Shown: positions 43,631-63,884 of the stretch, one piece after another
Numbering within the stretch: position 1 is the stretch's first letter
How the letters are laid out: each line of letters starts with the position of its first letter
Notes under the pieces: generated by a model
Seen by the model: only the letters and a program-made list of their open reading frames with translations
Database searches by the model: none
What the model was told of the DNA's origin: nothing
DNA from: Steroidobacter agaridevorans
GTDB taxonomy: Bacteria > Pseudomonadota > Gammaproteobacteria > Steroidobacterales > Steroidobacteraceae
Reading direction: 5' to 3'
Assembly: GCF_009932555.1 (NCBI RefSeq)
Contig: NZ_BLJO01000003.1
Span: forward strand, 558,001-622,000
Length of the DNA stretch: 64,000 nt
Translations under genes and position numbers: made by a program

Positions 43631-45106
43631 ATGAAAACAATTTTTCTGATTGTCCTGCTGTGCGCCTCGTTGCTGGGTCAGCCGGGCAGAGCGGAGGCGC
43701 CCTGGCAGCAGCATGGCAAGCTCGAGGTGTCCTCAAATGGCCACGCCATACAACATGCGGATGGCACCGCGCTGCTTTGGATCGGCGATACCGCGTGGGG
43801 AATGTTTCAACAGCTCACTCGCGAAGAGATCGATCAATACCTTGATCACCGTCAACGACTGGGATTCACGGTCATCCAGTCGGTAGCGTTCTGGTATCCG
43901 CACGGCGGCGGGATGCGGAGCGGACCTCACAACGCGGCCAATGCCTACGGTCATCGTCCCTTCAGCGGCGGCGAGGATTCTCCCAACACGGCCGAGCCGC
44001 TGGTGGTCGAGGGGGGCAGCCCCGACGCGCCCAATGACTACTGGGATCACGCGGACTATGTGATTCGCGCGATCAAGCAGCGGAACATGTATCTGGCGCT
44101 GTTGCCCTGTTGGGGACGAGCCTACGTCACTCCGCAGTTTGGTGGCGCTCATCAGGAATTCACGGAGTCAGAGGCGAAGTCCTATGGCGAGTTCCTCGGC
44201 AAGCGCTATCAACGGGAGCCGCACATCGTCTGGGTGCTCGGCGGCGATGCCAAGGCGCAGTATCAGGGCTACGGCAGCGATGGGTACGCGGAGTACGACA
44301 AGCGCGCCGTGTTCAGGGCGATGGCAGAGGGAATCGCGCACGGTGTGACCGGGCAGCGGCTCTCATGGAACCGGGCGCATCCGGCCTGGAAGCAGGTTTT
44401 CATGACCTATCACCCGGATGGCGACTTTCTAGACAATTCTTCCAAATGGTTCCACGAGGATGCCTGGCTGAGCGCCAACGGCGTGGAAGTGTGGAGCGAG
44501 GTGGAGCAGGTCTACCCGACGATGCTGCGCGACTACGAATTGCAGCGGCCGATCAAGCCGAGCCTGTTCCTCGAGGGGTCCTACGAATTCGGCTCTTATC
44601 GTCGCGAGTGCGGTTGGGTCACACCGCTCAAAACGCGCCGCCAGATCTACCATACCTTCTTTGCCGGCGGCGCCGGGCACACGTACGGGGCGGGGCCGAT
44701 CTGGGCTATGCGCGGCAACGGCGGCGACTACAACTGCGGCTACACCTGGCAACAGTCGCTCGATTTTCCAGGCGCCGCCCAGTTCGCCGGAGTGGCGAAG
44801 AAATTTCTGCTGGAGCACGGCTGGCCGCAGTGGATTCCAGAAGGGCGCATGGTCGCCGGCGCCGGGCAAGGTGAAAGCCTGAAGGCGGCCGTTACGGCTG
44901 CCTCTGGCCAGCTGGCGCTGGTTTATTTTTCCAATAACTCGCACGCGAAGATAACGAACACGCTGGGCAAAGCTGCGGTGGCGCGATGGTTCGATCCGCG
45001 CGACGGCGCAGAGCAGCCGGCAGGGCGATTCGAGCCGAATGAGGCCCGCGGCATGTTTCCTCCCGAGAGATGGGAAGACGCCGTGCTGATCCTGCGAGCC
45101 GAGTGA
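43631..45106 (+). CDS. DUF4038/GH140-like glycoside hydrolase (apiosidase-like)
   Basis: 491 residues from ATG 43631, with a signal peptide (MKTIFLIVLLCASLLGQPGRAEA). The body is a DUF4038 TIM barrel (GTALLWIGDTAWGMFQQLTREEIDQYLDHRQRLGFTVIQS; HIVWVLGGDAKAQY; SLFLEGSYEFG), followed by the small C-terminal beta domain (ALVYFSNNSHAKITNTLG). DUF4038 is the catalytic domain of GH140, whose characterised member removes apiose from rhamnogalacturonan II. The D-apiose-type operon at 55-64 kb supports apiosidase activity here. Upstream in-frame sequence back to 43379 is non-coding. Confidence 0.8.
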   Translation: MKTIFLIVLLCASLLGQPGRAEAPWQQHGKLEVSSNGHAIQHADGTALLWIGDTAWGMFQQLTREEIDQYLDHRQRLGFTVIQSVAFWYPHGGGMRSGPHNAANAYGHRPFSGGEDSPNTAEPLVVEGGSPDAPNDYWDHADYVIRAIKQRNMYLALLPCWGRAYVTPQFGGAHQEFTESEAKSYGEFLGKRYQREPHIVWVLGGDAKAQYQGYGSDGYAEYDKRAVFRAMAEGIAHGVTGQRLSWNRAHPAWKQVFMTYHPDGDFLDNSSKWFHEDAWLSANGVEVWSEVEQVYPTMLRDYELQRPIKPSLFLEGSYEFGSYRRECGWVTPLKTRRQIYHTFFAGGAGHTYGAGPIWAMRGNGGDYNCGYTWQQSLDFPGAAQFAGVAKKFLLEHGWPQWIPEGRMVAGAGQGESLKAAVTAASGQLALVYFSNNSHAKITNTLGKAAVARWFDPRDGAEQPAGRFEPNEARGMFPPERWEDAVLILRAE

Positions 45107-45126
45107 CGGAAACCGAAGCGACGACA

Positions 45127-46533
45127 ATGCGATACATCCGTATCCCAACTGCATTGCTGGCTTTGCTGTTACAACCGCTGCTGGCCGCAGGTGACGAATC
45201 AGTTACATCGCGGCCATGGTATGCACAAGGCGATTTCGAGCCTATGCAGCGCGTCGAACTGGTAGTGCGCAATACACTGGACCGCGAGCGGCACAACAAT
45301 CCAGTGACCATCCGGCGCGATCAGCTCGGCATGCTGCCGGACAGCCACGAATTCGCCCTCACGCTCGTCGACCCGAGCCTGCCAGGCCGGCCCGAGCCTT
45401 CGGCGGAGCTCTTCCAGCGACAAGGCGGACACGAGACGCGCCGGGAAAGCAACGGCGCCTGGATTGCCTATCAGCTCGACGATCTCGACCAGGACGGCCT
45501 CTGGGACGAGCTGTTCTTCATGTCCGATTTCGCGGCGGGGCAGAGCAAGGTCTTCTATCTCTATCTCGGCTTCCACAACCGTGGTTGGCACGTGCACCGG
45601 ACGCATGCCGCGATCGGTTCTTATGCCCGACACACTGTACCGTTCTGGGAGTCGGAGAACATCGGCTGGAAACTGTGGTATCCGACCGATATCGACGTGT
45701 TCGGCAAGCGGCGCCCGGTGCTGATGTCGCACCGCCTGTACATGGAGAATCTCGACGGTTACGGCGTGTCCGCGACCGATGTTGCCTACGGCTCTGACAT
45801 CATGCAGGTAGGGGCGTCGTTCGGCGGCGGCGGTATCGGCGTGTTCGAAGACGCAAAGAATCCCAACGTCGTCTCGCGCCCCAGGTTTACGGCGCGCTCG
45901 CTGGGCACCGGCTTCAACGCAGGTCCACGCAGCGACACTCGCTATGCATTTACGGTGTTGGCCAATGGGCCGGTGCGCTCGATCGTCCGAGCGCGCACCT
46001 TCAATTGGGACTCGGGCGCCGGAAAGTATGAGCTGGAACAAATGTACAGCGCGTACGCGGGGCAGAGCTATGCGACGGCGCGCGTCCACTTCTCTGTGTT
46101 CAACCCTGACAATCCCGACACCGCTTTTGCCGTGGGTATGCGCAAGCATCTGAGTGAAACCAGTTTTCATAAAGCGCGCGGCATCGTCATCAGCGGCGCA
46201 CCTGAGGCGATCCGCAACCAGGACGACGACGGCTTGCGTGAGAACAGCTTGATGGTGGATTTCGTCGGTACCGCACTGGTCGTGCCTGAAAAGTTTTCGC
46301 CGGAATACGTCTTCGTGCCTACCAGCGAAGGCAACCACGTACTGCGCATCAAGCCGAACAATGAGCGCTCATTCGAGTACCTGATCGCCGCGGGATGGAG
46401 CGAGGGCACCGTGAATCGGACCGCAGCGGAGTTTCGCGACTACACGCTGCGTACCGCCGAAGAGTTCAACTCGCCGCTGGAACTCGTCGGTGCGAAGTTG
46501 GAGGCGCGTCCGGCGACTCGCGCGTCCGAATGA
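45127..46533 (+). CDS. DUF4861-domain secreted protein
   Basis: 468 residues with a signal peptide (IPTALLALLLQPLLAAGDES). The body is a beta-rich DUF4861 domain: WIAYQLDDLDQDGLWDELFFMSDFAAG near the start, then SENIGWKLWYPTDIDVFGKRRP and a long sandwich. DUF4861 proteins occur in pectin and uronide operons; activity is not established with certainty, some being thought to act on unsaturated oligosaccharides. It starts 20 bases after the GH140-like gene and precedes a pectate lyase by 20 bases, so all three are one operon. Confidence 0.78.
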   Translation: MRYIRIPTALLALLLQPLLAAGDESVTSRPWYAQGDFEPMQRVELVVRNTLDRERHNNPVTIRRDQLGMLPDSHEFALTLVDPSLPGRPEPSAELFQRQGGHETRRESNGAWIAYQLDDLDQDGLWDELFFMSDFAAGQSKVFYLYLGFHNRGWHVHRTHAAIGSYARHTVPFWESENIGWKLWYPTDIDVFGKRRPVLMSHRLYMENLDGYGVSATDVAYGSDIMQVGASFGGGGIGVFEDAKNPNVVSRPRFTARSLGTGFNAGPRSDTRYAFTVLANGPVRSIVRARTFNWDSGAGKYELEQMYSAYAGQSYATARVHFSVFNPDNPDTAFAVGMRKHLSETSFHKARGIVISGAPEAIRNQDDDGLRENSLMVDFVGTALVVPEKFSPEYVFVPTSEGNHVLRIKPNNERSFEYLIAAGWSEGTVNRTAAEFRDYTLRTAEEFNSPLELVGAKLEARPATRASE

Positions 46534-46553
46534 CTGGCGATGGGAGACCTGTG

Positions 46554-47663
46554 ATGCCCAGCCATCGGCCCGCACAACCCATCTCGGCGCGTGCGATTCG
46601 TTTCCTGGTGGCTCTGTCCGGGCTTGCGATCTTATCGGGATGCTCGGCGACTGCGCCAGTCGCCTGGAACCCCGGCGTCGCTCGGCAAGCGTCGAATTGG
46701 TATCGATCCGCGCAGGCTCGGGGGATCGCGGACAGTGTCCTGCAGTATCAGTCGGCTGAGGGTGGCTGGCCAAAGAACACCGACTTGGCGAAGGCACCGC
46801 GAACCGCCGCGGATATTCCCTCCGACGGTAAAGAGAATACTTTCGATAACGACGGCACCACATTGCCGATGGAGTTCCTGGCGCGCGTCGTGCACGCTAC
46901 GGGCGCGAGAGTCTATCGGGATGCGTTCAATCGCGGCCTGGACTACACGCTTGCCGCGCAATATCCCAATGGCGGATGGCCACAATTCTATCCGCTACGC
47001 AGCGGCTACTACTCGCACATTACATTCAACGACGACGCGATGATCCGCGTGATGAGTCTGCTGCGTGACATCGCATCCGGAAAGCCACCCTACGAGTTCG
47101 TCGACGATGTGCGCCGGGAGCGGGCGGCGCAGGCGGTTGCGCGAGGCATCGATCTCATATTGAGAACCCAGATCAAACAAAACGGGTTCCTGACCGCCTG
47201 GTGCGCACAGTATGACGAGCGGACACTCGAACCCGCCTGGGCGCGTCGTTACGAGCCGCCCTCGTTATCGGGCAGTGAGAGCGTGGGCATCCTGCGCTTT
47301 CTCATGAGCATCGAGGCGCCGACGCCGCAGATCGTCGCCGCAATCGAAGGCGGCGTGCGCTGGCTGCGGCAGTCGGCTATCGTCGGCATTCGCCTGGAAC
47401 GCTTTACGAGTGATGATGGGTTAGCAGACAAGCGCGTGATGGCGGAATCAGCGGCCGAAACTCTTTGGGCTCGCTTTTATGAACTCGGCTCCAACCGTCC
47501 GATTTTTCTGGGCCGGGACTCGGTGTTCCGTTACAACTTCGCGGAAATCGAACGCGAGCGCCGCACGGGTTATGGGTACTACGGCACCTGGCCTCGCCGG
47601 CTGCTCGACGAAGACTATCCGGCATGGAAGCGAGAGTTGCCACTTCAACCGCGGCGGTCCTGA
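46554..47663 (+). CDS. PL10 pectate lyase (lipoprotein)
   Basis: 369 residues. The signal ends in a lipobox (AILSGC), so it is probably anchored in a membrane. The catalytic domain is the PelA/Pel-15E alpha-toroid: LQYQSAEGGWPKNTDLA, TFDNDGTTLPMEFLARVV, QYPNGGWPQFYPLRSGYYSHITFNDDAMIRVM and IVGIRLERFTSDDG. PL10 cuts polygalacturonate by calcium-dependent elimination. It is the third gene of the GH140-DUF4861-PL10 operon and upstream of a TonB receptor. ATG 46554 chosen, GTG 46551 adjacent. Confidence 0.88.
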   Translation: MPSHRPAQPISARAIRFLVALSGLAILSGCSATAPVAWNPGVARQASNWYRSAQARGIADSVLQYQSAEGGWPKNTDLAKAPRTAADIPSDGKENTFDNDGTTLPMEFLARVVHATGARVYRDAFNRGLDYTLAAQYPNGGWPQFYPLRSGYYSHITFNDDAMIRVMSLLRDIASGKPPYEFVDDVRRERAAQAVARGIDLILRTQIKQNGFLTAWCAQYDERTLEPAWARRYEPPSLSGSESVGILRFLMSIEAPTPQIVAAIEGGVRWLRQSAIVGIRLERFTSDDGLADKRVMAESAAETLWARFYELGSNRPIFLGRDSVFRYNFAEIERERRTGYGYYGTWPRRLLDEDYPAWKRELPLQPRRS

Positions 47664-47767
47664 GCGGGTTCTGAGGCCGGCAACGCACGCTGCGAGCCTC
47701 TTCCATCATCGATTCGTACTGCATCCATGACGGTCCTGCGAACCGTCCGAGCTCTGGAATGGCTCCG

Positions 47768-47812
47768 AAAGATTATTATCCTGGGAATCTTTAGGTGAGA
47801 TCGAGAAGATTC
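47768..47812 (+). promoter_or_regulatory. Upstream regulatory block, copy 2
   Basis: AAAGATTATTATCCT followed by ATCGAGAAGATTC, the same arrangement as at 43311-43355. Within each copy the AAGATT units are 37 bases apart, which could be two half-sites for a regulator such as the AraC protein encoded downstream. It lies about 105 bases before the TonB receptor. Confidence 0.45.
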
Positions 47813-47917: not shown

Positions 47918-50900
47918 ATGCAGCAGCGCAATCGTGTTGTTACGCGTGCCATCTGCACGACGTCCGGCAGGGCGTTGGCGATGGCGGGGATGTGGATGGC
48001 GGCCTACGCTCCAGCGTGGTCGCAGACGACCGCGCAGACCTCACAGCTCGAAGAGGTCATCGTGACAGGTATCCGCAGCGCGCTCGCGAGCGGAATCGAG
48101 ACCAAACGCGAGTCGTTCACGCAGGTCGACGAGATCAACGCCGAGGACATGGCGGATTTTCCGGACAGCAATCTGGCCGAGTCGCTGCAGCGTTTGCCGG
48201 GCGTATCGATCGATCGAGTCGACGGCGAGGGCCGCACCATCACCGTTCGCGGTCTCGGCGGCGATTTCGTAACCACCACTATCAACGGCATGGACGCGCT
48301 GTCCACCGCGGGCGGCGGCAATTCTGGCTCGTCTCCCAATCGCAGCCGTTCCTTCGAATTCAACTCGTTTGCGTCGGAGCTGTTCGGCAGTCTCAAGGTT
48401 CAGAAGACCGCCGCGGCGTCGACTGACGAAGGCTCGTTGGGCTCGACGGTCGCGCTCTCGACGCCCCGCGCTCTGGATTACGGGCGCTTCGCTACCGCAC
48501 TTTCCGCCTCGGGTGCGTACTACGATGCCGGCGATAAGGTATCGCCGCGCCTGGCGGCACTCATCACGGACACGTTCTTCGACAACAGGCTGGGCATCAT
48601 CGCTTCGGCGGCCTACAGCGAACGTGATTCGGTCATCGACAAGTACGATCGCAACACCGGTCAGGCCGACATCCTGTATCGAAATTCGCAGCACGCGGGG
48701 TTGACGCCGGCTACGTTCGGCTATGCGCGTCCTTCCAACGCGACCCACGCGAATCCAGCGCTCTCTTGCGCGGCAAATCCGGGGCTGCTGGGTTGCGGTT
48801 CCGACCCGGCGGCGTACGCGGCGCTGCCCCTGACGGCATTCATTCCAACCTTCCCGACGCTGAGTCACGAGGAAATCAGCTACGAACGCCTCGGGGTGAC
48901 CTTCGGCGTGCAATGGCGTCCGACCGATCGATCGTTACTGTCGCTGGACTATCTTCTGTCCTCGTACAAGAGTGAAGAAGTGCTCTATGAGCTCACGCCC
49001 ATCAGCGGCAATCGCAATGGATACAACGCCACGGCGGCAATCAATCCAGCTTCGCTGAATGCGGCGGCCCGGCGCGGCCTGTACGCGAGATGCGATCAGG
49101 TCACGGGCACGGTGGACGATCGCGATTGTGGTCAGGCGCTGTACGGAACCACGCCGGTTGCCGGCACGCAGTTCAGCTTCAATCCGCACAATCTCGAGCC
49201 CTACGACTACTACAACTCGCCTGCCTCGGTCGGCTATATCCCGAGCGCCAATGGCATCGCGAACTGGGCGCAGCTCGTCGGACGCCCCAACATGCAGGTG
49301 CGGGACGTGAACGTAGTCACGAACCGCGATGGTCGCGCGTTCGCCGACTACATTGCGCTCGACAACGTGGACTGGCGCAATGCCGCCGACGGCACGGAGA
49401 ACGAGACGACGTTCGATCAGATCTCGCTGAATTTCGAACACCGGTTCAGCGATGCGCTGAGCATGACCGCGCTGATCGGCACCTCCAAGTCGGAATATCG
49501 AAGCAACGGCATGCTGGTCGAGTTCAACAATCTGGACATGGACGGTTTCGTATTCGATGAACGCAGCGGCGGCTCCATGCCCGTCATGAATCTCGGATTC
49601 GATCCGGCGGATCCGAACAATTGGAGCCTCGTGAAAGGGTTGTCGGAAGTGCGCACGGTTCGCTGGGCCGTGGACAACGAGTTTGAAACGGCGAAACTGA
49701 ATTTCACCTGGACTTTCTCTGACACCTTCGGCGTGAACTTTGGCGGCGGGCGCAAGAAGTTCGATTATTCCGCGCTCGAGCTGCGGCGTAACTCGGGTGC
49801 TCAGCCCATGATTCCAACCGAGCGCGAGGCGGGCCGCGCTATTGGCGAGTTCGGCCGGATGGTTTCTTACGGCGAAGGCGGCATCGATGTTTCGAATGGC
49901 ACACCGACCCGCTGGTTCGCACCGAGTTTCGATGGCTTCCGTAACGCCTTCGACGTGCAATGCAACTGCATCAATCAATGGGGCGACTGGCGCCTCAACG
50001 AACGCACCGGGAGCACCAACGCCGTTTCCGAAACCGATACCAGCGGCTACGCCGAGCTGACGATGAACGCTCAGCCGGGCGGCCGGCGGTTGTTCGGAAA
50101 TTTCGGCGTGCGCTACGCGAAGACGGAAGTGGAATCCGCTGGGCTGCTCGCGAACCAAATCCTCACCGCGAACAACGAATACAACGACACGCTGCCATCG
50201 TTGAATCTTGCCTACGAGGTGCTGCCCGATACGCTGCTGCGTATCGGCGCCGCGAAAGTCATGGCCCGCCCGCGGCTCAACGACCTGCGTCCCAACGGCA
50301 ACCTGCCGACCGGTTGCAGCGGCACCAGCGCTGGCTGCAATTCAGCGCCGGCCTTTACGATGGGCAACCCGTACCTCGAGCCATTCCGCGCGACCAACTA
50401 CGATCTCGGCCTGGAGTGGTACTTCAGCAGTGAAGGCTTGCTGGCTGCTGCGTTGTTCTACAAGGACATCGAATCGTTCCCGCAGTCGGTACGCAGCGAT
50501 GGGCCGCTGTCGCAGGTGCTGCCGCCAGAGCTGCTGAGTGCGTACGTGGCGACCATCACCGATGCGCCACTGCTCGCGCACATCAATAACGGCGGCACCT
50601 TCGGCATCACTACGCAGCGCGATTCGCCCGGCGGCTTCATCCGTGGCGCGGAGTTGTCCTATCAACAGCCGTTCACGTTCCTGCCGGCGCCGTTCAACAA
50701 CTTTGGCACCATCCTCAACTACACACGCATCGAGTCGGAGCTGCAATACATAGTCAACAGCAACACCGGGCAAACGCAGACCGCACCGTATCTCAACGCG
50801 TCGCCCAACTCGTTCAACGCCACGCTCTACTATGCGACGGATCGCTGGGAAGCGCGCATTTCCGGAGCGTATCGATCCGAATATATGCAGCTCTTTCCGG

Positions 50901-51172
50901 TATCGGCGGGCACTTGCGAGATTGGACTGACCACCAGCGGCGGCGCGCCGTGCAACGCGCCGCTCATCAATGACTTCCGCGCGGTGGAGGACAATCTCTA
51001 TGTGGATGCGTCGTGGCGTTTCGATGTCGGCGACTATATGAGCCTCACCGCCGAGATACAGAACCTCACGGACGAGCATACCCAGCGCTGGGTCTACAGC
51101 GACGTGGAGATCATTCAGTTGCACCAGGGATTCGGTCGAACGTTCACGCTCGGCTTGCGTGTCAAGCTGTAG
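47918..51172 (+). CDS. TonB-dependent receptor of the pectin/apiose locus
   Basis: 1084 residues: signal peptide, plug (LEEVIVTGIRSALASGIETKRESFTQVDEINAEDMADFPDSNLAESLQRLPGVSIDRVDGEG; RTITVRGLGGDFVTTTINGMDAL) and a large barrel ending in a hydrophobic residue run (GFGRTFTLGLRVKL). ADFPDSNLAESLQRLPG is typical of the oligosaccharide receptors of Caulobacter and Xanthomonas type. Between PL10 and another lyase-like gene, it should import oligogalacturonides. An upstream paralogue remnant shows an earlier duplicate. Confidence 0.9.
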   Translation: MQQRNRVVTRAICTTSGRALAMAGMWMAAYAPAWSQTTAQTSQLEEVIVTGIRSALASGIETKRESFTQVDEINAEDMADFPDSNLAESLQRLPGVSIDRVDGEGRTITVRGLGGDFVTTTINGMDALSTAGGGNSGSSPNRSRSFEFNSFASELFGSLKVQKTAAASTDEGSLGSTVALSTPRALDYGRFATALSASGAYYDAGDKVSPRLAALITDTFFDNRLGIIASAAYSERDSVIDKYDRNTGQADILYRNSQHAGLTPATFGYARPSNATHANPALSCAANPGLLGCGSDPAAYAALPLTAFIPTFPTLSHEEISYERLGVTFGVQWRPTDRSLLSLDYLLSSYKSEEVLYELTPISGNRNGYNATAAINPASLNAAARRGLYARCDQVTGTVDDRDCGQALYGTTPVAGTQFSFNPHNLEPYDYYNSPASVGYIPSANGIANWAQLVGRPNMQVRDVNVVTNRDGRAFADYIALDNVDWRNAADGTENETTFDQISLNFEHRFSDALSMTALIGTSKSEYRSNGMLVEFNNLDMDGFVFDERSGGSMPVMNLGFDPADPNNWSLVKGLSEVRTVRWAVDNEFETAKLNFTWTFSDTFGVNFGGGRKKFDYSALELRRNSGAQPMIPTEREAGRAIGEFGRMVSYGEGGIDVSNGTPTRWFAPSFDGFRNAFDVQCNCINQWGDWRLNERTGSTNAVSETDTSGYAELTMNAQPGGRRLFGNFGVRYAKTEVESAGLLANQILTANNEYNDTLPSLNLAYEVLPDTLLRIGAAKVMARPRLNDLRPNGNLPTGCSGTSAGCNSAPAFTMGNPYLEPFRATNYDLGLEWYFSSEGLLAAALFYKDIESFPQSVRSDGPLSQVLPPELLSAYVATITDAPLLAHINNGGTFGITTQRDSPGGFIRGAELSYQQPFTFLPAPFNNFGTILNYTRIESELQYIVNSNTGQTQTAPYLNASPNSFNATLYYATDRWEARISGAYRSEYMQLFPVSAGTCEIGLTTSGGAPCNAPLINDFRAVEDNLYVDASWRFDVGDYMSLTAEIQNLTDEHTQRWVYSDVEIIQLHQGFGRTFTLGLRVKL

Positions 51173-51192
51173 TCGAGGGTGACGCCGTGACG

Positions 51193-52871: not shown

Positions 52872-52919
52872 AGGTCATGGTGCAGATTTTCTACGATGGT
52901 TGATCCGACGAACATGCCT

Positions 52920-55346: not shown

Positions 55347-56369
55347 ATGAAGGGGGAGATGATGTTCAGCACCAATAGCCCGCCACGCGCGGTGTCGTTG
55401 TCTTTTGGCGCCGGCTTGTGGATGTTCGGGCAGTTCGTCGATCGGTATGCGACGGACGCATACGGCCCCCCCGTCGGAACACTTCAGGCCATCGCTCGTG
55501 CCGGAGAAGTCGGACTGCTATCTGCGGTCGACATCAATTATCCATTCGAGCCGGGCGTCACGCCCGCGCAGGTGAAGTCCGCGCTTCAGGATGCGGGCTT
55601 GCGAGCGATCGCTGTCACGCCCGCCATCTATACGCGCAAGTTTCAGCGCGGCAGCTTCACCAATCCGGACTCGAAGCTGCGCGGCGATGCCATCGATCTA
55701 TGCAAGCGCGCCATCGATGTGGCGCAACTGCTCGAAGCCGATTACGTGAAGTTCTGGCCAGGGCAGGACGGGTATGACTATCCCTTTCAGGCGGAATATA
55801 CCCAGCTTTGGGATCTGGCCGTCGCCGGCGTGCGCTCGCTGGCAGCAAGCCACCCGCAGATGGGATTCGCAATCGAATACAAGTCCAAGGAACCGAGAAC
55901 TCACATTACTTTCAGCTCGGCGGCACGCACGCTGCTGGCGATTCAGGACATGGGCGTCGACAACGTCGGCATCGTCATGGATCTCGGTCACTCGCTGTTC
56001 GCACAGGAAACACCTGCTGAAGAACTGCAGCTGATCGCTCGGCGCGGCAAGTTGCGTAGCGTGGAAGTGAACGACAACTGGCGGCAGTGGGATGACGATC
56101 TCACTGTCGGGGCGGTGCATCTGATCGAGACCCTGGAGTTCATGCTCGCCCTGCGGAGCATCGGCTGGCAACGTCCGATCCTGCTCGACCAGTTTCCGTT
56201 CCGTGAGGATCCGGTTGTTGCCGCCCGACACAGCATCGGCATGCTCAAGTTGCTGGATGCGGCGCTCGATCGGATCGATCTCGCGCAATTGCACGAAGTG
56301 CGAACCAATCAGGATGCATTGGCTGCGCAGCGCCTGGTTTATCAAACCATTCTCGGCGATCTGCGATGA
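55347..56369 (+). CDS. Xylose-isomerase-like TIM-barrel sugar isomerase (candidate D-apiose isomerase)
   Basis: 340 residues of the AP-endonuclease/xylose-isomerase fold: AVDINYPFEPGVTPAQVKSAL, ADYVKFWPGQDGYDYPFQ, FAIEYKSKEPRTHITFSS with the metal-binding glutamate, VDNVGIVMDLGHSLFAQE and RSVEVNDNWRQWDDDL. Such enzymes interconvert aldoses and ketoses. It heads an operon with a split transketolase and FGGY kinase, the gene set of the known D-apiose route (apiose to apulose to apulose 4-phosphate). The D-apiose assignment rests on context. Another ketose precursor cannot be excluded. ATGs at 55347, 55359 and 55362 are all possible. Confidence 0.72.
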   Translation: MKGEMMFSTNSPPRAVSLSFGAGLWMFGQFVDRYATDAYGPPVGTLQAIARAGEVGLLSAVDINYPFEPGVTPAQVKSALQDAGLRAIAVTPAIYTRKFQRGSFTNPDSKLRGDAIDLCKRAIDVAQLLEADYVKFWPGQDGYDYPFQAEYTQLWDLAVAGVRSLAASHPQMGFAIEYKSKEPRTHITFSSAARTLLAIQDMGVDNVGIVMDLGHSLFAQETPAEELQLIARRGKLRSVEVNDNWRQWDDDLTVGAVHLIETLEFMLALRSIGWQRPILLDQFPFREDPVVAARHSIGMLKLLDAALDRIDLAQLHEVRTNQDALAAQRLVYQTILGDLR

Positions 56370-57223
56370 GCGCCTCACACGCGCTCGGCGTCAGCGACCG
56401 AGAGCTGATGATCAAGTCGCTCGAGTATCGCAAGGATGTGCTGCGGATCATTTCGCATGCAGGCGCGGGCCATACCGGCGGCAGCTTGTCGTCCATCGAT
56501 ATTCTCAATGTGCTCTACAACCGCGTCATGAGGATATCGCCGGCGAGGTTCGATCAGCCCGATCGCGACCGCTACATTCAGAGCAAGGGACATTGCGTCG
56601 AGGCGCTCTATGTGGTGCTGGCCGATCTAGGATTCTTTCCGCGTTCGCAGCTGACGACGCTCTGTGAGTACGGCTCGCACTTCATCGGTCACCCGACACG
56701 CAAGGTGCCGGGCGTGGAGCACAATACCGGCGCCTTGGGGCATGGGCTCGCCTTCGGCGTTGGACTCGCGCTCGGGTTGCGTCACGATGATCTGCGTAAC
56801 CGTGTGTTCGTGCTGCTCGGCGATGGTGAGCTCGCGGAGGGTTCGGTGTGGGAGGCCGCGATGGCGGCGGCGCATTATGAACTCGATCAGCTGGTCGCGA
56901 TCGTCGATCGCAACCGGTTGCAGATCACCGGACCGACCAAAGATGTGCTGAGCAGCGAGCCGCTCGAATCCAAGTTCGGCGCGTTCGGCTGGCACGTGCG
57001 TACTGTCGACGGCCACAATGTCGCTGCGCTCACCAACGCGCTCACCGTTCCGCCTCCGCAAGGCAAGCCCATGGTGCTGCTCGCCGACACCATCAAAGGC
57101 AAGGGTGTGAGCTTCATGGAAGGCGTGCTGAAGTGGCATCACGGCGTGCCGGACGTCGATGAGTATCGCCGCGCCATGGAGGAGCTGGGAGCGGCGCTGC
57201 GCCAGGTGGGAGGGCACCAGTGA
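56366..57223 (+). CDS. Split transketolase, N-terminal (ThDP-binding) subunit
   Basis: 285 residues, ATG overlapping the isomerase stop. The ThDP motif is GDGELAEGSVWEAAMAAAHYELDQLVAIVDRNRLQITG; GHTGGSLSSIDILNVLYN and GALGHGLAFGVGLALGLR are family signatures. Split transketolases include the apulose-4-phosphate transketolase pair AptA/AptB, which yields dihydroxyacetone phosphate and xylulose 5-phosphate with glyceraldehyde 3-phosphate. The kinase and isomerase next to it support such a branched-sugar substrate rather than the housekeeping pentose pathway. Confidence 0.83.
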   Translation: MSASHALGVSDRELMIKSLEYRKDVLRIISHAGAGHTGGSLSSIDILNVLYNRVMRISPARFDQPDRDRYIQSKGHCVEALYVVLADLGFFPRSQLTTLCEYGSHFIGHPTRKVPGVEHNTGALGHGLAFGVGLALGLRHDDLRNRVFVLLGDGELAEGSVWEAAMAAAHYELDQLVAIVDRNRLQITGPTKDVLSSEPLESKFGAFGWHVRTVDGHNVAALTNALTVPPPQGKPMVLLADTIKGKGVSFMEGVLKWHHGVPDVDEYRRAMEELGAALRQVGGHQ

Positions 57224-58227
57224 GCGCCCGAACGCCCTCAATGTATTCGGACGACGCACGCCAGAGGGCGGCGCGGCTCGGCTTGCGGCTCGGTCGTCCG
57301 AACCTCGAAGAGTTCGCGGCGACACTCACCGAGATCGCCGCCCGGGATCGCAACGTGATGGTCGTCACCAGCGACTCGCGCGGGTCGGGCAAGCTCGTCG
57401 GGTTCGGTCAGCGCCTGCCAAAGCAGATCGTCGAGGTCGGCATCGCCGAGCAGAATCTGGTCGGCATCGCGGCCGGACTGGCGGCCACGGGCAAGAAAGT
57501 GTTTGCGGTTTCTCCTGCCTGTTTTCTCACCGCGCGCGCGCTGGAGCAAATCAAAGCTGACGTAGCCTACTCGGATCATCCCGTCGTGCTCGTGGGTATC
57601 AGCGCTGGCGTGAGTTACGGAGCGCTCGGCTCGACACATCATTCGCTGCACGATTTCGCGGCGCTGCGCGCCATCAACAACGTCAGCATCGTGGCACCGG
57701 CAGACAACAAAGAGACCCACGCGGCGGTGTTGTACGCCTCGCAGGCCGTGCATCCGGTTTATCTGAGATTCGGCAAGGCGCCAATGTACGACGTGCATGG
57801 ACCGGAGACGGGTAACCATGTGCGATCCGCGATGGTGGTCCGCGAGGGCACCGACGTCGCATTCATTGCGATCGGCGAAGCGGTCATTCACGCGCTGCTC
57901 GCCGCTGAGGATCTGTACGATCGCGAGCGAATTTCCTGTCGAGTCGTCAGTGTACCGGCGCTGCGTCCCTTCGACCAAGGACCCGTGCTGGCAGCCGCTC
58001 GAGAATGCAAAGCCTTGATCACCGTCGAAGAGCATTCCGTGTGCGGCGGCCTGGGTGAAGCCTGCGCTTCGTTGCTGCTTGAGTCAGGAGCGCGAACTCA
58101 GTTCAAGATGGTGGCCATCCCGGATGAATACACGGTCACCGGCAGCCAGGCGGACATATTCCGGCACTACGGCATCACGATGGAAGGTCTGGCGCGAACC
58201 GCGCATCGTTTGCTCGAGTCCATCTGA
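57220..58227 (+). CDS. Split transketolase, C-terminal subunit
   Basis: 335 residues from GTG 57220, overlapping the first subunit (GTGA). It carries the Pyr-domain features VEVGIAEQNLVGIAAGLAATGKKVFAVSPACFLTARALEQIKADVAY and GSTHHSLHDFAALRAINNVSIVAPAD, then the C-terminal domain (ITVEEHSVCGGLGEACASLLLE). It completes the active site with the preceding gene. Its stop overlaps the kinase start by one base (TGATG), giving a tightly coupled metabolic core. Confidence 0.85.
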   Translation: MSARTPSMYSDDARQRAARLGLRLGRPNLEEFAATLTEIAARDRNVMVVTSDSRGSGKLVGFGQRLPKQIVEVGIAEQNLVGIAAGLAATGKKVFAVSPACFLTARALEQIKADVAYSDHPVVLVGISAGVSYGALGSTHHSLHDFAALRAINNVSIVAPADNKETHAAVLYASQAVHPVYLRFGKAPMYDVHGPETGNHVRSAMVVREGTDVAFIAIGEAVIHALLAAEDLYDRERISCRVVSVPALRPFDQGPVLAAARECKALITVEEHSVCGGLGEACASLLLESGARTQFKMVAIPDEYTVTGSQADIFRHYGITMEGLARTAHRLLESI

Positions 58228-59714
58228 TGAAGGCCGTGTTGTCCATCGATCAGAGTACTTCGGCGACCAAAGCGCTGCTGGTCGATCCATCTGGCGCGGT
58301 GCTCGCGAGAGCGGGCAGGGACCATCGGCAGCACTATCCACAACCGGGATGGGTCGAGCACGATGCAGAGGAGATCTGGGCGAACGTGCTCGCGACTGTG
58401 CGCGAGCTGCAACAGTCCGGCGCGTGCTCCGGGATCGAGATCAGCGCCATCAGCATTGCAAATCAGCGGGAGACGGTGGTGATTTTCGATCGCGTCACCG
58501 GCGCCCCCGTTCATCCGGCGATGGTATGGCAATGCCGGCGCGGTGATGAGTTATGCGCCGAGCAACTGCGCAGGGGACGCGACTCGACGGTCCGTGCACG
58601 CACTGGGTTGCGGATCGATGGCTACTTCAGCGCATCGAAGCTGCAGTGGCTGGTGCAGGAGCGCCCGGATATAGCCCGCCGACTGCAGAACGCCGAAGTG
58701 CTCATCGGTACGATGGAGACGTACCTCATCTACAGAATGACGCGAGGGCAGGTCTTCGCGACCGATCCGAGCAATGCGAGCAGGACTCTATTATTCGATA
58801 TCCACCAGCGGGCGTGGGACGAGGACCTTTGCTCTTGGTGGCAGGTACCGTCGTGCGCGCTGGCTGAGGTCCGGGATTGCGATGCTCAGTTCGGTGAGAG
58901 CACACTGGATGGTTTGTTACCGTATGCGGTGCCGATACGCGGCGTGATGGGCGATTCACAGGCGGCGATGTTTGCGCAAGGATGTTTTGAACCGGGCAGC
59001 GCCAAGGCGACGTTCGGCAGCGGCACATCGGTACTCGTGAACGTCGGCTCATCGCCGGCACGCTCGACCCGGGGCGCTGTGGCGTCGCTGGCGTGGGTGC
59101 AGGGCGGGCGGGTCACTTATGCGCTCGAAGGTATCATCAATTTCTCGGCGGCGACCATGAACTGGTTGCGTGATCAACTGGGTCTGTTCGTCACTCTGGA
59201 GGAAGCCGAGCGCCTTGCTCAGGCCGCCGGCGAGCGTAACGAGGTATATCTCGTGCCGGCGTTCGCCGGACTCGGTGCGCCATACTGGCGTGATGCGGCT
59301 CGTGCGGCGATCGTAGGGCTAAGCGCGCATAGCCATCGAGGACACATTGTCAGGGCGGCGCTGGAAGCCATTGCTTTTCAGTTGCGCGATGTGATCGAGA
59401 TGCTGCAGGCCGAAGCGGGCGTCGCCGTCAGCGAGCTGCGTTGTGATGGCGGCGCGACTCGCAGCGATCCGCTCATGCAGTTCACCGCGGACGTGCTGGG
59501 CATCGAACTGCGGCTGCCGCGTCATCCCGAGTGTTCGGCGATCGGCGCGGCCATGATGGGCATGTTGGGGATAGGATGGTACCCGTCGCCGCAGGCCATG
59601 AGAGAATTGACGAGCGAAGCTCATGCGTACCGTCGCAAGATGTCGCCGGACGAGGCCGACTGCCGTTATCGAGGCTGGCAGCGAGCCGTGCAGCAGGTGC
59701 TGGGCGTGACCTGA
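58227..59714 (+). CDS. FGGY-family sugar kinase (candidate apulose kinase)
   Basis: 495 residues of glycerol-kinase-like FGGY fold: opening SIDQSTSATKALLVDPSGAVLARA, ISIANQRETVVIFDRVTGAPVHPAMVWQCRR, FGSGTSVLVNVG, and the C-terminal LRCDGGATRSDPLMQFTADVLGIELRLP with the ATP/hinge signature. FGGY kinases phosphorylate ketoses and polyols; AplK, the apulose kinase, belongs to the glycerol-kinase-like branch. Its position after a sugar isomerase and split transketolase supports phosphorylation of apulose at C4. Other ketoses remain possible. Confidence 0.78.
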   Translation: MKAVLSIDQSTSATKALLVDPSGAVLARAGRDHRQHYPQPGWVEHDAEEIWANVLATVRELQQSGACSGIEISAISIANQRETVVIFDRVTGAPVHPAMVWQCRRGDELCAEQLRRGRDSTVRARTGLRIDGYFSASKLQWLVQERPDIARRLQNAEVLIGTMETYLIYRMTRGQVFATDPSNASRTLLFDIHQRAWDEDLCSWWQVPSCALAEVRDCDAQFGESTLDGLLPYAVPIRGVMGDSQAAMFAQGCFEPGSAKATFGSGTSVLVNVGSSPARSTRGAVASLAWVQGGRVTYALEGIINFSAATMNWLRDQLGLFVTLEEAERLAQAAGERNEVYLVPAFAGLGAPYWRDAARAAIVGLSAHSHRGHIVRAALEAIAFQLRDVIEMLQAEAGVAVSELRCDGGATRSDPLMQFTADVLGIELRLPRHPECSAIGAAMMGMLGIGWYPSPQAMRELTSEAHAYRRKMSPDEADCRYRGWQRAVQQVLGVT

Positions 59715-59748
59715 ACCGCCGGCAGACGAGTCGAAGGGGGATGAAAGA

Positions 59749-60729
59749 ATGAGAGCACTGCGTTCCGTCATCGGAGCGGTCGCTGGAATCATCTTGGCGT
59801 GCGGGCTCGTGGCCTGCTCGCGTGGTCCGGCCGAATCGACACCCGCGCCTGCTCCAGGGGCGCAGAGCCGTCAGATCGCCGTGGTGGTTTCGACGCTCAA
59901 CAATCCCTGGTTCGTGGTGCTGGCAAACACGGCGCGCGACGAAGCGCAGCGCCGGAACTACAAGGTGACAATCTTCGATTCGCAGAACGATCCAGCGAAA
60001 GAAGCTGCGCATTTCGAGAATATCGTGGCATCGCGTTACGCCGCCGTGCTGCTGAACGCCACCGATGCCGAGGGCTCCGTCGCCAACGTGATGAAGGCGC
60101 GCGTGGCGAACATTCCGGTGTTCACGATGGATCGCGAGATCAACTCACGGGCGCCCGTTTCTCAAGTACTCTCGGACAACTATGCCGGCGCGGTGGACGT
60201 GGCCATCGAGTTCGTCGAGCAACTGGGCGAGCGGGGCAGGTACGTGGAACTGCTCGGTATCGTGACCGACAACAACACCTGGAACCGTTCGAAGGGCTTT
60301 CACAGCGTCGTCGATCGCTATCCGGGCCTGGAAATGATCGCCCAGCAGAGCGCGGAGTTCGATCGCAGCAAAGCGCTCGAAGTCATGGAATCGATCCTGC
60401 AGCGGAGCACCTCCATCGACGCGGTGTTTTGCGGCAACGACGCCATGGCTCTTGGCGCCTATCAGGCGTTGTTGAGCGCGGGACTCGCCGGCAAGGTGAA
60501 GGTCTTCGGATTCGATGGCTCGGACGATGCGCTCGCGTCGATTGCCGAAGGCAAGCTCACTGCCACAGCGATGCAGTATCCGAAGACGATGGCGCGGATG
60601 GTGGCGGAATTCGCCGATCGCTATCTGCAGGGGGAGCGCAACCTGCCGGCACGGCTGCCGATCCATGTCGATCTGGTCACTCGTGGCAACATCGGGGAGT
60701 TTGGTGAACATGGCCGCCGTGGCGAGTAA
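59749..60729 (+). CDS. Ribose-type sugar ABC transporter substrate-binding lipoprotein
   Basis: 326 residues with a lipobox (GLVAC, Cys near 23) and a RbsB-like periplasmic-binding fold: QIAVVVSTLNNPWFVVLANTARDEAQRRNYKVTIFDSQNDPAKE, VFTMDREINSR, VFCGNDAMALGAYQALLSAGLAGKVKVFGFDGSDDAL and ATAMQYPKTMARM. It follows the kinase by 34 bases and heads the transporter genes. It should bind the free pentose in the periplasm, by context D-apiose or a related sugar. Confidence 0.87.
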   Translation: MRALRSVIGAVAGIILACGLVACSRGPAESTPAPAPGAQSRQIAVVVSTLNNPWFVVLANTARDEAQRRNYKVTIFDSQNDPAKEAAHFENIVASRYAAVLLNATDAEGSVANVMKARVANIPVFTMDREINSRAPVSQVLSDNYAGAVDVAIEFVEQLGERGRYVELLGIVTDNNTWNRSKGFHSVVDRYPGLEMIAQQSAEFDRSKALEVMESILQRSTSIDAVFCGNDAMALGAYQALLSAGLAGKVKVFGFDGSDDALASIAEGKLTATAMQYPKTMARMVAEFADRYLQGERNLPARLPIHVDLVTRGNIGEFGEHGRRGE

Positions 60730-61357
60730 TCGACGCCGCTGGCGCGCCGTCGCGATCTGGGGGCTGGCGCTCGGCATTTTCTGTTGGGTGCTGCCGCCGT
60801 TCCACGTTCGTACGCTGGACGCGCCGGCCGCATCCGTTGCAAGGGACTCGGGGCCCTCGCAGAGCCCGGCGCACAGTGCCCGGGAGCTTTGGAAACAAAT
60901 GCTCGGCACGCAGGAACGCGCAGTTCCGTTGTCCACGCTGCTGGCTGCCTTCGAGCGCGACCCTGGAGCGGCGGAGCAAGAATATGGCCGACGCATCGGT
61001 CATGGTGGCCCGGCATTTTTTTTCGTGACTGGCTCGGGTCGCGTGCTCGAGTCTACCCGCAAAGGGGTAGTGCTCGAAATTGCCGAACATTCCACGCGCG
61101 TGCTGCTGGTTACCGGCCCGGTTTTCGGCAACTCGCTGCGCGATTCCACATCGCTGGTCCAGATCGGGGACTTTGACTCCTTCCAGTTCAACGCCCTCAG
61201 TGCCGAGTTGAATTTGCTATCGGAGCGGGAAGTGCAGCCACGTATCGCCGCACTGAATCGGCCCGGCGAAGTGCTGAACTTTACTGGCGGTGCCCGGTTC
61301 GCGCGTCGCGGAGGTGCGCTGGAAGTGGTCGCGATCGACGTCAGTCCTTTGAAATGA
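60710..61357 (+). CDS. DUF2291-family periplasmic/membrane-anchored protein
   Basis: 215 residues from ATG 60710, overlapping the binding-protein gene by 20 bases. An N-terminal anchor (WRAVAIWGLALGIFCWVLPPFHV) precedes a DUF2291 domain, with STLLAAFERDPGAAEQEYGRRIGHGGPAFFFVTGSG and VLLVTGPVFGNSLRDSTSLVQIGDFDSFQFNALSAELN. DUF2291 proteins recur beside ribose-type ABC transporters; their role is unproven. It overlaps the ATPase gene by four bases, so it is a fixed part of this transporter operon. Confidence 0.75.
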   Translation: MAAVASNRRRWRAVAIWGLALGIFCWVLPPFHVRTLDAPAASVARDSGPSQSPAHSARELWKQMLGTQERAVPLSTLLAAFERDPGAAEQEYGRRIGHGGPAFFFVTGSGRVLESTRKGVVLEIAEHSTRVLLVTGPVFGNSLRDSTSLVQIGDFDSFQFNALSAELNLLSEREVQPRIAALNRPGEVLNFTGGARFARRGGALEVVAIDVSPLK

Positions 61358-62901
61358 CATCAACGGCCGCGACATCTCACGTGCTCGAGGCACGCAACAT
61401 CTCCAAGAGCTTTCCTGGCGTCCGCGCCCTGCAAGATGTCAGCCTGCGCTTGTCGGCCGGCAAGCTCGTCGCACTGGTCGGAGAAAACGGTGCCGGCAAA
61501 TCCACGCTGATGAGTGTGCTCGCCGGCGTACAGCCGCCGGACAGGGGCGAAATTCTGCTCGACGGCACAGTCATCAGCTTCCGTCATCCGAGTGAAGCGC
61601 GCCGCGGAGGAATCGCCACCATATTTCAGGAACTGGGCCTGAGCGCGAATCTGACCGTCGCCGAGAACATCTTCCTCGGCGAGGAAGCGACCACGCGCTG
61701 GGGCACACTCGATTACGCAGCGATGCATCGTCACACGCGCAGCCTGCTGGCGCGCATGCAGCTCGATATACCAGCAGATGCGCCGCTACACTCGCTGCGC
61801 GTCGGGCAGCAGCAGGTTGTTGAAATCGCGCGGGCGCTGTCCGCCAATGCGCGAGTGATCATCATGGATGAGCCTACCTCGGCACTGTCGCAAGGCGAGA
61901 TCGAATCGCTACTGCGCATGATCAAAGAGCTCAAGGCCGCGGGCGTCGCGATCGTCTACATCACTCACAAGTTCGAAGAGCTCGCGGACCTGGCCGACGA
62001 AGTCGCCATCATGCGAGATGGCCGGATGATCACTCAGGCATCCTACGAGTCGCTGACCCACGAGCAGATCGTCAGCCTCATGGTCGGACGCACCCCGACA
62101 GCAACGCATGCGCGACGCGTGCGACGCTCGACGAAGGAGCCGGTGCTCTGCGTAAAGCAGGCGTATCTGCCGCATCCCTCCCGGCCTGGCGACTACCTGG
62201 TGCGCAACGTCGACTTGCATCTGTGCCGCGGTGAAGTGTTGGGCATCTTCGGGCTCATGGGCGCCGGACGCACCGAACTGCTGGAGACAATCTTCGGCAT
62301 GCATGCGCGTCGCGCTCGTCTAGATCTCGCCATCGACGGGCGTGAAGCGCGCTTCGCGTCGCCGGCGGAGGCCGTCGATGCGGGGCTTGCGTTTGCTCCG
62401 GAGGATAGAAAGCGTGATGGACTGGTGTTGGACATGAGCACGCAACAGAACGCCACGCTGGCGTGTCTGGGCGCGATGAAACGTTGGGGATTGATCCATC
62501 CGGCACTCGAGACGGAATGTGCGCGTACTTTGCTCCAACGCATCCACTGGCGCGGATCATCGCTGCGGGAACCGGTGCGCAATCTCAGCGGCGGCAATCA
62601 GCAGAAGGTGATTCTGGCGAAGTGGCTCGCCACCCGTCCGAAGGTGCTGCTGTTGGATGAGCCAACGCGTGGCATCGATATCAATGCGCGCAACGAAATC
62701 TACGCGCTCATCGAGGAACTGGTGGCGGGCGGTCTGTCGATCGTCATGGTCTCCTCCGAGCTGCCGGAGATCATGGCGCTTTCCGATCGCATCATGGTGA
62801 TGTGCCAGGGCGCCAATGCCGGCGAGTTCGCCGCCGACACCGCCACCGCTGAAGCGATCATGACGGCTGCTTTACCGAACTCGACGAGGTCGCGGGCGTG
62901 A
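61354..62901 (+). CDS. Sugar ABC transporter ATPase (RbsA-type, duplicated)
   Basis: 515 residues with two ABC domains. The first has GENGAGKST and Walker B VIIMDEPTSALSQGE. The second has a degenerate P-loop (GLMGAGRTE), signature LSGGNQQKVILAKWLA and VLLLDEPTRGID. This asymmetry is normal for RbsA/XylG-type proteins. It energises uptake of the sugar captured by the upstream binding protein. It starts in the stop of the DUF2291 gene (ATGA) and overlaps the permease (GTGA). Confidence 0.92.
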   Translation: MTSTAATSHVLEARNISKSFPGVRALQDVSLRLSAGKLVALVGENGAGKSTLMSVLAGVQPPDRGEILLDGTVISFRHPSEARRGGIATIFQELGLSANLTVAENIFLGEEATTRWGTLDYAAMHRHTRSLLARMQLDIPADAPLHSLRVGQQQVVEIARALSANARVIIMDEPTSALSQGEIESLLRMIKELKAAGVAIVYITHKFEELADLADEVAIMRDGRMITQASYESLTHEQIVSLMVGRTPTATHARRVRRSTKEPVLCVKQAYLPHPSRPGDYLVRNVDLHLCRGEVLGIFGLMGAGRTELLETIFGMHARRARLDLAIDGREARFASPAEAVDAGLAFAPEDRKRDGLVLDMSTQQNATLACLGAMKRWGLIHPALETECARTLLQRIHWRGSSLREPVRNLSGGNQQKVILAKWLATRPKVLLLDEPTRGIDINARNEIYALIEELVAGGLSIVMVSSELPEIMALSDRIMVMCQGANAGEFAADTATAEAIMTAALPNSTRSRA

Positions 62902-63884
62902 ATGTGACGATTCTGAATACTCCATCGGTGGCGCGGTTGCAGTCGCTGCTCGCGCTCGCGTTAATGGTCGTCGGCCTCGGCCTGATGACTGACACCTTCC
63001 TTACGTCCGATAACGGTTGGAATATTCTGCGGCAGATCTCGGTGAATCTGTGCCTGTCGGTAGGCATGACACTGATCATCATCAGCGGCGGCATCGACCT
63101 GTCTGTCGGCGCCGTGCTGGCGCTCTCCGGGGCGGTGGCGGCGGGCTTGCTCAAGCAAGGCATTGCGTTGCCTTTTCTTGGCGTGCACCTCGATTTCACA
63201 ATCACCGGCGCCATCGTGTCGGCTATTGCCGTTGGTGCCGCAGCGGGCGCGTGCAATGGCTTAGCGATCACGCGCCTGCAGCTGCCACCCTTCGTCGCTA
63301 CGCTTGCGATGCTCAGTATCGCGCGCGGCCTCACGTTGCTGTGGACCGGAGGATTTCCTATCACTGGACTCGGGCCATCGTTCGGCTTCATCGGCACAGG
63401 CGCATGGCTCGGCATCCCCATGCCGGTTTGGGAAGTACTGGTGATCGTCATGCTCGCTGCGCTCGTTTGCAAGCGCACAGCTTTCGGCCGGCATCTCTAT
63501 GCCGTCGGCGGCAGCGAGCGAGCCGCGCTTCTCGCGGGGGTACGCGTCGAGCGAGTCAAGCTGATCGTGTACGTCGTCGGCGGCGTGCTGAGCGGAGTTG
63601 CCGGCCTCCTCGTGACGGCGCGTCTCGATTCCGCGCAGCCCAATGCGGGTCTGGGTTACGAGCTCGACTCCATCGCCGCCGTGGTGATTGGCGGCACGTC
63701 GCTATCCGGCGGCCGAGGCTCCATCGTGGGAACGGTCATTGGTTGTCTCATCATCGGTGTGCTCAACAACGGCCTGTTTCTGCTCGACGTGTCTCCTTTC
63801 TGGCAGCAGGTCATCAAGGGTCTGGTGATCATCGTCGCGGTCGCACTCGACAGGTTCGGCGCACCGAAGGGCCGGGCTGGCTGA
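62898..63884 (+). CDS. Sugar ABC transporter permease (RbsC-type)
   Basis: 328 residues from GTG 62898, overlapping the ATPase stop. Hydrophobic segments number eight to ten, including LMVVGLGLMTDTF, GIDLSVGAVLALSGAVAAGLL and the RbsC signature GGTSLSGGRGSIVGTVIGCLIIGVLNNGLFLLDVSPFWQQVIKGLVIIVAVALD. It forms the membrane channel of the transporter. It is the last gene of the operon; the remaining 116 bases contain no gene. Confidence 0.9.
   Translation: MNVTILNTPSVARLQSLLALALMVVGLGLMTDTFLTSDNGWNILRQISVNLCLSVGMTLIIISGGIDLSVGAVLALSGAVAAGLLKQGIALPFLGVHLDFTITGAIVSAIAVGAAAGACNGLAITRLQLPPFVATLAMLSIARGLTLLWTGGFPITGLGPSFGFIGTGAWLGIPMPVWEVLVIVMLAALVCKRTAFGRHLYAVGGSERAALLAGVRVERVKLIVYVVGGVLSGVAGLLVTARLDSAQPNAGLGYELDSIAAVVIGGTSLSGGRGSIVGTVIGCLIIGVLNNGLFLLDVSPFWQQVIKGLVIIVAVALDRFGAPKGRAG

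Follow-up and report, generated by a model that had tools for sequence, protein, structure and literature searches.

A probable D-apiose utilization locus linked to pectin-degrading genes in Steroidobacter agaridevorans, with an apparent isomerase exchange among related operons

The 64,000-nucleotide stretch of Steroidobacter agaridevorans DNA analysed here (contig NZ_BLJO01000003.1, positions 558,001 to 622,000; hereafter the window) probably carries a D-apiose utilization locus, in which a catabolic operon is linked to pectin-degrading genes. The operon runs from isomerase to permease at 55.3–63.9 kb, while the outer block, from a GH140-like to a PL10-like protein, lies at 43.6–52.8 kb; between them stand a gene for a Sde182 protein and then a divergent AraC-type regulator gene. 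The placement of the isomerase and the transketolase in their families, the gene order and an exchange of isomerases between operons were read from the sequence, and from these we predict the substrate and every reaction. The PL10 lyases would cut galacturonan, and release of D-apiose from apiose-bearing pectin would fall to the GH140-like enzyme, perhaps together with the Sde182 protein; the TonB-dependent receptor would take in pectin fragments and the ATP-binding cassette (ABC) system would import the sugar. An ApsI-type isomerase would then convert D-apiose to D-apulose, an FGGY kinase would produce apulose 4-phosphate, and an AptAB-type transketolase would move the two-carbon unit of apulose 4-phosphate to glyceraldehyde 3-phosphate, with xylulose 5-phosphate and dihydroxyacetone phosphate as the products; the AraC protein probably controls the locus. 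The pathway itself is known; what is new is the hybrid operon and its implication for isomerases of the FucI family.

The first gene of the operon encodes the proposed D-apiose isomerase (55347–56369, PF01261; this and all other genes of the locus are on the forward strand, except that of the regulator). According to the excerpted text of PMC13001218, the apiose genes of Escherichia coli SE15 are named aplK, aptA and aptB, the cluster of Pectobacterium carotovorum WPP14 has apsI where Escherichia has two oxidoreductase genes in its place, and growth on D-apiose was obtained with E. coli strains carrying the cluster and with the apsI-bearing WPP14. The best solved relative of the window isomerase was Protein Data Bank (PDB) entry 3ktc (368 bits), the next structure scoring 62 bits. 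We take 3ktc, whose title reads only 'xylose isomerase', to be the enzyme of Pectobacterium atrosepticum that later received the name ApsI. In two genomes of a single genus (loci L141 and L142), isomerases that match the aligned part of 3ktc at 100% and 99% identity are encoded in a cluster with AptA (79%), AptB (71–72%) and a regulator (69–70% identity to E. coli SE15), an AplK relative (44–45%), a binding protein, a DUF2291 protein, an ATPase and a permease. Because these isomerases match 3ktc and stand beside AptA and AptB, the 3ktc sequence is tied to apiose-type clusters. The window isomerase was 52% identical to the isomerase of this cluster and retained E177, D212, H215 and D243, which are presumably the metal ligands of the fold.

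In the isomerase tree, the window sequence grouped with nine ApsI-type sequences against 12 of a sister clade (support 100/100), as the deepest branch on the ApsI side; the program warned of long branches meeting, and the sister clade was named before all its contexts had been checked. At 28 columns fixed differently in ApsI and the sister clade, defined without the window, the window isomerase carried the ApsI letter at 20, the other letter at one and neither at seven. A ribokinase-like gene was present at all eight sister-clade loci examined (8 of 12 rows; L117, L118 and L144–L149), compared with 0/7 loci on the ApsI side. The isomerases of these eight loci were 33–38% identical to that of the window, and most of the loci also carry ABC sugar-transport genes. 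Isomerases 86% identical to 3ktc were encoded at L112 (10013–11005), L116 (9013–10005) and L143 (9753–10754), two of them on Pantoea plasmids, and the Pantoea plasmid isomerases were 52–54% identical to that of the window.

The two genes that follow encode the subunits of a split transketolase, the AptA-type tkA (56366–57223) and the AptB-type tkB (57220–58227). The former was 48% identical to E. coli SE15 AptA as compared with 31% to TktA, and the latter 39% to AptB as compared with 25% to TktA. In a 94-sequence tree, a branch with support of 99/98 parted 37 other split transketolases from 57 apiose-type or unsure rows that included the window, namely 43 from FucI loci, seven from ApsI loci (window included), three from loci with a pair of short-chain dehydrogenase/reductase (SDR) genes and four unsure. 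Its labels drew on an earlier 87-sequence tree, with L013, L037 and L049 set as unsure and a second transketolase of L047 set as 'other', and L051 was absent, its gene being broken. In the 87-sequence tree, which had an unsplit outgroup, a 98/98 group comprised the window, five known or ApsI-linked rows, 41 rows of FucI modules and three rows from short contigs, and the one FucI-locus row outside it was the second transketolase of L047. This locus (5983–15049, Clostridium paraputrificum) carries FucI, GH140-like and AptAB genes together with the second transketolase pair, which fell among the other split transketolases. Within the 94-sequence tree, window tkA branched between Limisphaera (98/87) and Bacteroidota rows (97/90), and one 100/100 group in the transketolase tree held Sodalis, E. 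coli, Klebsiella, Erwinia and L141/L142, whose first steps are of three kinds. In Enterococcus gilvus a tkA relative lies inside a dihydroxyacetone-kinase cluster, and in Erwinia E602 no isomerase or kinase gene accompanied the tkA–tkB pair within the stretch read.

Downstream of the transketolase lie the FGGY kinase, a proposed D-apulose kinase (58227–59714), and the genes of a ribose-type transporter: a periplasmic binding protein (59749–60729, PF13407), a DUF2291 lipoprotein (about 60713–61357, start approximate; PF10054, 92 bits), a sugar ATPase (61354–62901) and a sugar permease (62898–63884), the last two identified by family-model matches and the permease being 39% identical to that of the E. 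coli apiose cluster. The genes from isomerase to kinase overlap by 1–4 bases, and the isomerase is therefore part of the operon transcript; those from DUF2291 to permease overlap by 4 bases, and 34 bases separate the kinase and binding protein genes. The divergent regulator (54384–55241, reverse strand; PF12833) scored 198 bits with the MelR model, below its cut-off of 253. The kinase was GlpK-like and passed the broader subfamily model NF000756 (543 bits, cut-off 498), but at 546 bits it stayed under the cut-off of the GlpK equivalog TIGR01311 (590) and it fell outside the GlpK clade, so it does not qualify as a glycerol kinase GlpK; a GlpK that shares 50% identity with the E. coli protein is encoded separately in the 8.0 Mb host genome. 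With E. coli AplK as query, FGGY kinases of 37–43% identity were found in 47 of 274 genomes of the class, none of them plainly AplK. The annotation of Klebsiella aerogenes (L166, 5769–7290) splits into two pieces a kinase with 82–84% identity to E. coli AplK, under the name 'Uncharacterised pentose kinase TM0952', and so connects a Thermotoga gene name with the AplK family.

To place the operon as a whole, genome contigs were scanned with window tkA, and the best 80 of at least 582 relatives were taken as loci. In counts made with Sde182, GH140 and FucI profiles that were built partly from the loci counted, a FucI-family isomerase was present in 42 of these 80 loci, including all 38 with an FGGY kinase; the other 38 loci had neither (ten of the 80 were shorter than 10 kb, and these short loci include L013, L037 and L049 from the 38 without FucI), and ApsI was found in none of these best 80. 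The most similar module among the loci compared was that of Limisphaera (L023), with identities of 73% for the permease and Sde182, 68% for tkB, 62% for the binding protein, 61% for tkA, 57% for the kinase and the ATPase, 51% for the AraC protein and 34% for DUF2291; its isomerase is a FucI-family gene. The closest tkA among the loci compared was in L010/L011 (66–67%). Judged by these identities, the window operon has a body like those of the Verrucomicrobiota and Bacteroidota operons, with ApsI sitting in the isomerase slot that elsewhere holds FucI. The reverse exchange was observed in Sodalis praecaptivus, where AptA (78%), AptB (73%), the kinase (72%) and the regulator (72%) resemble those of E. 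coli and the binding protein is 83% identical to that of L141, and the isomerase is a FucI-family protein, 54% identical to that of Runella. Among the FucI loci, L036 encodes a GH140 protein scoring 457 bits to 3kzs/5msy, and L043 a binding protein 71% identical to 5ibq and inside the apiose-cluster clade.

Since the isomerases are exchanged in otherwise matching operons, both families would do the same job, and the FucI-family proteins thus probably form a second family of D-apiose isomerases; in the simplest reading, FucI-family proteins, ApsI and the SDR pair would be alternative routes from D-apiose to D-apulose. A broader proposal, which we put forward tentatively and with somewhat less than even confidence, is that FucI-family proteins form a second, unrelated family of D-apiose isomerases where they accompany an AptAB-type transketolase and a GlpK-like kinase (in Bacteroidota, Verrucomicrobiota, Bacillota, Spirochaetota and Sodalis), that many operons labelled 'ribose' or 'glycerol', probably including the Thermotoga ribose operon, in fact serve apiose, and that the associated Sde182/DUF1593 proteins are exported apiofuranosidases. 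Our literature searches found no paper joining apiose with fucose isomerase, and the work of Carter et al. in 2018 on D-apiose pathways may include a FucI-type isomerase already.

The outer block begins with a GH140-like exported hydrolase, a candidate apiosidase (43631–45106; PF13204 Apiosidase, 250 bits, cut-off 26.5). Among PDB entries it scored 144 bits with 8t9w, titled 'Apiosidase', and 126 bits with 3kzs/5msy, which we take to be the apiosidase BT1012; D206 and E315 align with the Asp and Glu presumed to form the catalytic pair of BT1012, so that an apiosidase-like catalytic domain with two catalytic acids is present. It is followed by a DUF4861 protein (about 45127–46533, the start being picked by eye at a signal-peptide-like Met; PF16153, 144 bits), a PL10 pectate lyase (46518–47663), a TonB-dependent receptor (47918–51172; PF00593 and PF07715) and a second, divergent PL10-like protein (51265–52782; 47 bits to pectate lyase 1r76 in the PDB). 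The Pec_lyase domain PF09492 was recovered at 341 bits in the first lyase and weakly, at 89 bits, in the second. In the set of 80 loci, GH140-like proteins above 150 bits occurred in 8/42 FucI loci as compared with 1/38 others (the 4.2-kb contig L049), and above 40 bits in 11/42 as compared with 1/38; PF13204 genes thus recur beside apiose-type modules, FucI loci included.

Between this block and the regulator lies the gene of an exported, nucleoside-hydrolase-like Sde182/DUF1593 protein (52896–54350; PF07632, 373 bits; PDB 2yhg, 283 bits). Homologues above 40 bits were present in 13/42 FucI loci and 0/38 others, and the gene stands between tkB and the binding protein gene in Runella (L010 and L014), Adhaeribacter (L022) and Muricauda (L029), and directly after ApsI in Croceibacterium. 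In other places the gene occurs by itself: relatives were present in five plasmid records, and neither the Spirosoma locus nor the single Croceicoccus locus inspected had apiose genes annotated close to it. The Asp motif (D42, D48 and D49) is retained in the window protein, and for S. degradans Sde_0182 the excerpted text of PMC8910321 describes a conserved calcium site, inactivity on nucleosides and a proposed binding of furanoses. An apiofuranosidase role is plausible because furanose binding has been proposed for the family and the apiose of pectin has this form; the Sde182 protein as candidate apiofuranosidase is a reasonable guess, and such proteins may feed the apiose route.

Apiose genes and pectin genes are joined elsewhere as well. 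On a plasmid of Croceibacterium sp. TMG7-5b_MA50, a TonB receptor, a GH65-type hydrolase, ApsI and Sde182 are followed, within about 35 kb, by an annotated pectate lyase (matched by no Pfam model), GH28, pectinesterases and GH95, and then by a transketolase pair and an FGGY kinase. On a Streptomyces NBC_00184 plasmid, annotated pectinesterase, GH28 and beta-L-arabinofuranosidase genes lie beside ApsI–tkA–tkB–FGGY. An earlier note on this DNA knew of no such joint cluster, and these similar loci weaken the idea that it is without parallel. The order isomerase–tkA–tkB–FGGY with ApsI recurs in Streptomyces NBC_00184 and Rhizobium SL42, and the recurrence of the same module across phyla indicates that the genes are not linked merely by chance. 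Among the papers found on apiose, transketolase and pectin, PMC13001218 alone seems, judging by titles, to treat bacterial catabolism, and no paper was found that joins apiose, isomerase, pectin, rhamnogalacturonan and ABC transporter.

Close to the host, neither the isomerase nor the GH140-like gene (E 1e-30) was found in any of the 59 other genomes of the genus, family and order, and a tkA relative (E 1e-40) occurred in 7/60, own genome included, the six others at 35–47% identity. With the isomerase and the GH140-like gene thus confined to their own genome among 60, the locus looks acquired. A relative of the window isomerase was present in 1/273 other genomes of the class (34% identity) and in 10/295 genomes of the order to which genome G252 belongs, three of them reaching 52–54%; phages had no isomerase relative at E 1e-10. 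The class includes genomes whose GlpK and AptA are 77% and 79% identical to the E. coli proteins, as would be expected of a gammaproteobacterial host.

The locus is flanked by other polysaccharide genes. Just upstream (30264–41324) is an alginate-type locus with a TonB receptor, a Chondroitinase-B/PL6-type protein (PF14592), a Hepar_II_III_C plus Alginate_lyase protein, a major facilitator superfamily (MFS) transporter, an SDR and a PfkB sugar kinase. A partial second copy of the SDR at 39590–40345 lies at 41459–41995, with residues 74–251 matching at 62% identity and the N-terminal part absent. To the right of the window (L009, 109–15615), an Ig-domain protein comes first, and a second block 3–16 kb past the window end holds a TonB receptor, Sde182, an MFS transporter, a GH78 rhamnosidase, a DUF5060-PF13204 protein and a sulfatase. 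Near the L036 module, too, stand GH78 and one DUF5060-PF13204 protein, and a protein of the latter type is present in Monoglobus. Such GH78 and PF13204 neighbours would fit a rhamnose- and apiose-bearing pectin such as rhamnogalacturonan II, without proving it.

Several observations weigh against the reading of the window as a D-apiose locus. The kinase was 39.5% identical to E. coli GlpK as compared with 33% to AplK, and its tree paired it with the Limisphaera kinase on a poorly supported backbone, outside both the AplK clade (100/99) and the housekeeping GlpK clade (100/100). Solved GH140 enzymes are only distant relatives of the GH140-like protein. No transketolase pair was found near the ApsI-like gene in the three Pantoea-type loci read (L112, L116 and L143), and an ApsI-like gene alone is therefore no proof of apiose use. 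The binding protein was 55% identical to the ribose-binding TM0958 of Thermotoga maritima (2fn8, 320 bits) and 36% to 5ibq, which we take to be an apiose complex, and it grouped with TM0958, apart from the clade that holds 5ibq and the E. coli, L141, L142 and L114 proteins. All ten TM0958 pocket residues tabled in the excerpted text of PMC2630998 are kept in the window protein, whereas those of L141, L142, L114 and 5ibq have Phe for Trp15 and Trp for Phe172, and that of E. coli differs at 5/10. The transporter evidence thus leans towards a ribose-like pocket and is the chief point against a simple apiose reading, although an apiose-cluster-type binding protein is a feature of the known examples and no definition of the pathway. 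A close relative of the window binding protein (508 bits) stands beside the ApsI operon of Rhizobium SL42. The same evidence would suit an operon serving D-ribose or another ordinary pentose, with the ABC system importing ribose and the transketolase feeding the pentose phosphate pathway; as given in the excerpt of PMC3750489, the T. maritima ribose operon contains a transketolase and two predicted D-arabinose enzymes and is induced by ribose and xylose. We nevertheless consider this explanation very unlikely, as the operon genes include no ribokinase, ribose requires no isomerase of the ApsI kind, and the isomerase and transketolase are of the ApsI and AptA types; apiose is not mentioned among the TM0958 ligands tested in the excerpted part of PMC2630998. 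The genes that the earlier note had named in the 43–54 kb block and the 55–64 kb operon are all present as open frames with family-model matches; the Sde182, AraC-type and DUF2291 genes come in addition to those it listed. Its D-apiose operon beside pectin genes is supported by the isomerase (with ApsI, 100/100) and the transketolase (with AptA, 99/98), and the binding protein, which sits with TM0958 apart from the apiose clusters, speaks against it. Of the comparisons it had suggested, the trees agreed for the isomerase and the transketolase and left the kinase in neither clade, and that with the apiosidase held for the domain and the aligned acids, with no more than distant likeness to the solved enzymes.

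A different objection grants that the operon handles apiose and treats the 43–54 kb block as an independent galacturonan locus that is a mere neighbour. There are gaps between the blocks, and no promoter motif common to both was found when the 105-base gap between the AraC and isomerase genes was compared with seven other upstream gaps (16-base words, matches no better than in eight shuffles each), while the alginate-type locus just upstream means that polysaccharide loci may simply cluster here. However, genes like the Sde182 gene between the blocks accompany operons of this type elsewhere, apiose-type modules repeatedly have PF13204 genes as neighbours, Croceibacterium and Streptomyces also combine annotated pectinases with apiose genes, and a second TonB/Sde182/GH78/DUF5060-PF13204 block lies on the other side of the operon, so we regard mere proximity as somewhat unlikely. 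It is also conceivable, and to us a little less likely still, that the FucI-family modules use another substrate, such as D-arabinose or a sulfosugar, and that the window is a one-off mixture. The two predicted D-arabinose enzymes of the Thermotoga operon point this way, as does a further result unfavourable to an apiose role, namely that the only NCBIfam match of four FucI-family proteins scanned was sulfoquinovose isomerase, at 101–119 bits with a cut-off of 700. In contrast, the FucI gene of Sodalis lies inside a near-copy of the enterobacterial apiose cluster, L036 encodes a close relative of 3kzs/5msy, and the binding protein of L043 is of the apiose-cluster type.

If the apiose reading is correct, the window unites in one locus the removal of apiose from pectin and the catabolism of apiose, which are usually studied apart. 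The isomerase exchange offers a direct and cheap functional test for the widespread FucI-family group; D-apiose use would become predictable in Bacteroidota and other bacteria with operons annotated as ribose or glycerol, and the Sde182 family would gain a concrete substrate to try.

Compared with known systems, the window resembles the Pectobacterium ApsI/AplK/AptAB pathway (in E. coli two SDR genes replace apsI) in its isomerase and split transketolase families, FGGY kinase, binding protein, DUF2291 protein, ATPase and permease. It differs in having an AraC regulator where those clusters have a 'sugar-binding transcriptional regulator', in a kinase and a binding protein that do not fall within the clades of known examples, and in the added Sde182, GH140-like and PL10 genes. 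The FucI–transketolase–GlpK-like modules of Verrucomicrobiota and Bacteroidota (Limisphaera L023, Runella L010) are alike in the rest of the operon, but their isomerase is of the FucI family and that of the window of the ApsI type. The T. maritima ribose operon (RbsR regulon), compared by sequence through TM0958 only, shares a ribose-type ABC system and a transketolase in one operon and differs by a ribokinase and a LacI-family regulator, as given in the excerpt of PMC3750489. The Croceibacterium plasmid locus, which packs ApsI, Sde182, a transketolase pair, an FGGY kinase, TonB receptors and annotated pectinases into about 35 kb, separates its ApsI and transketolase genes by 23 kb and, over the stretch seen, has no annotated ribose-type ABC genes, whereas in the window the isomerase, transketolase and transporter genes form one operon.

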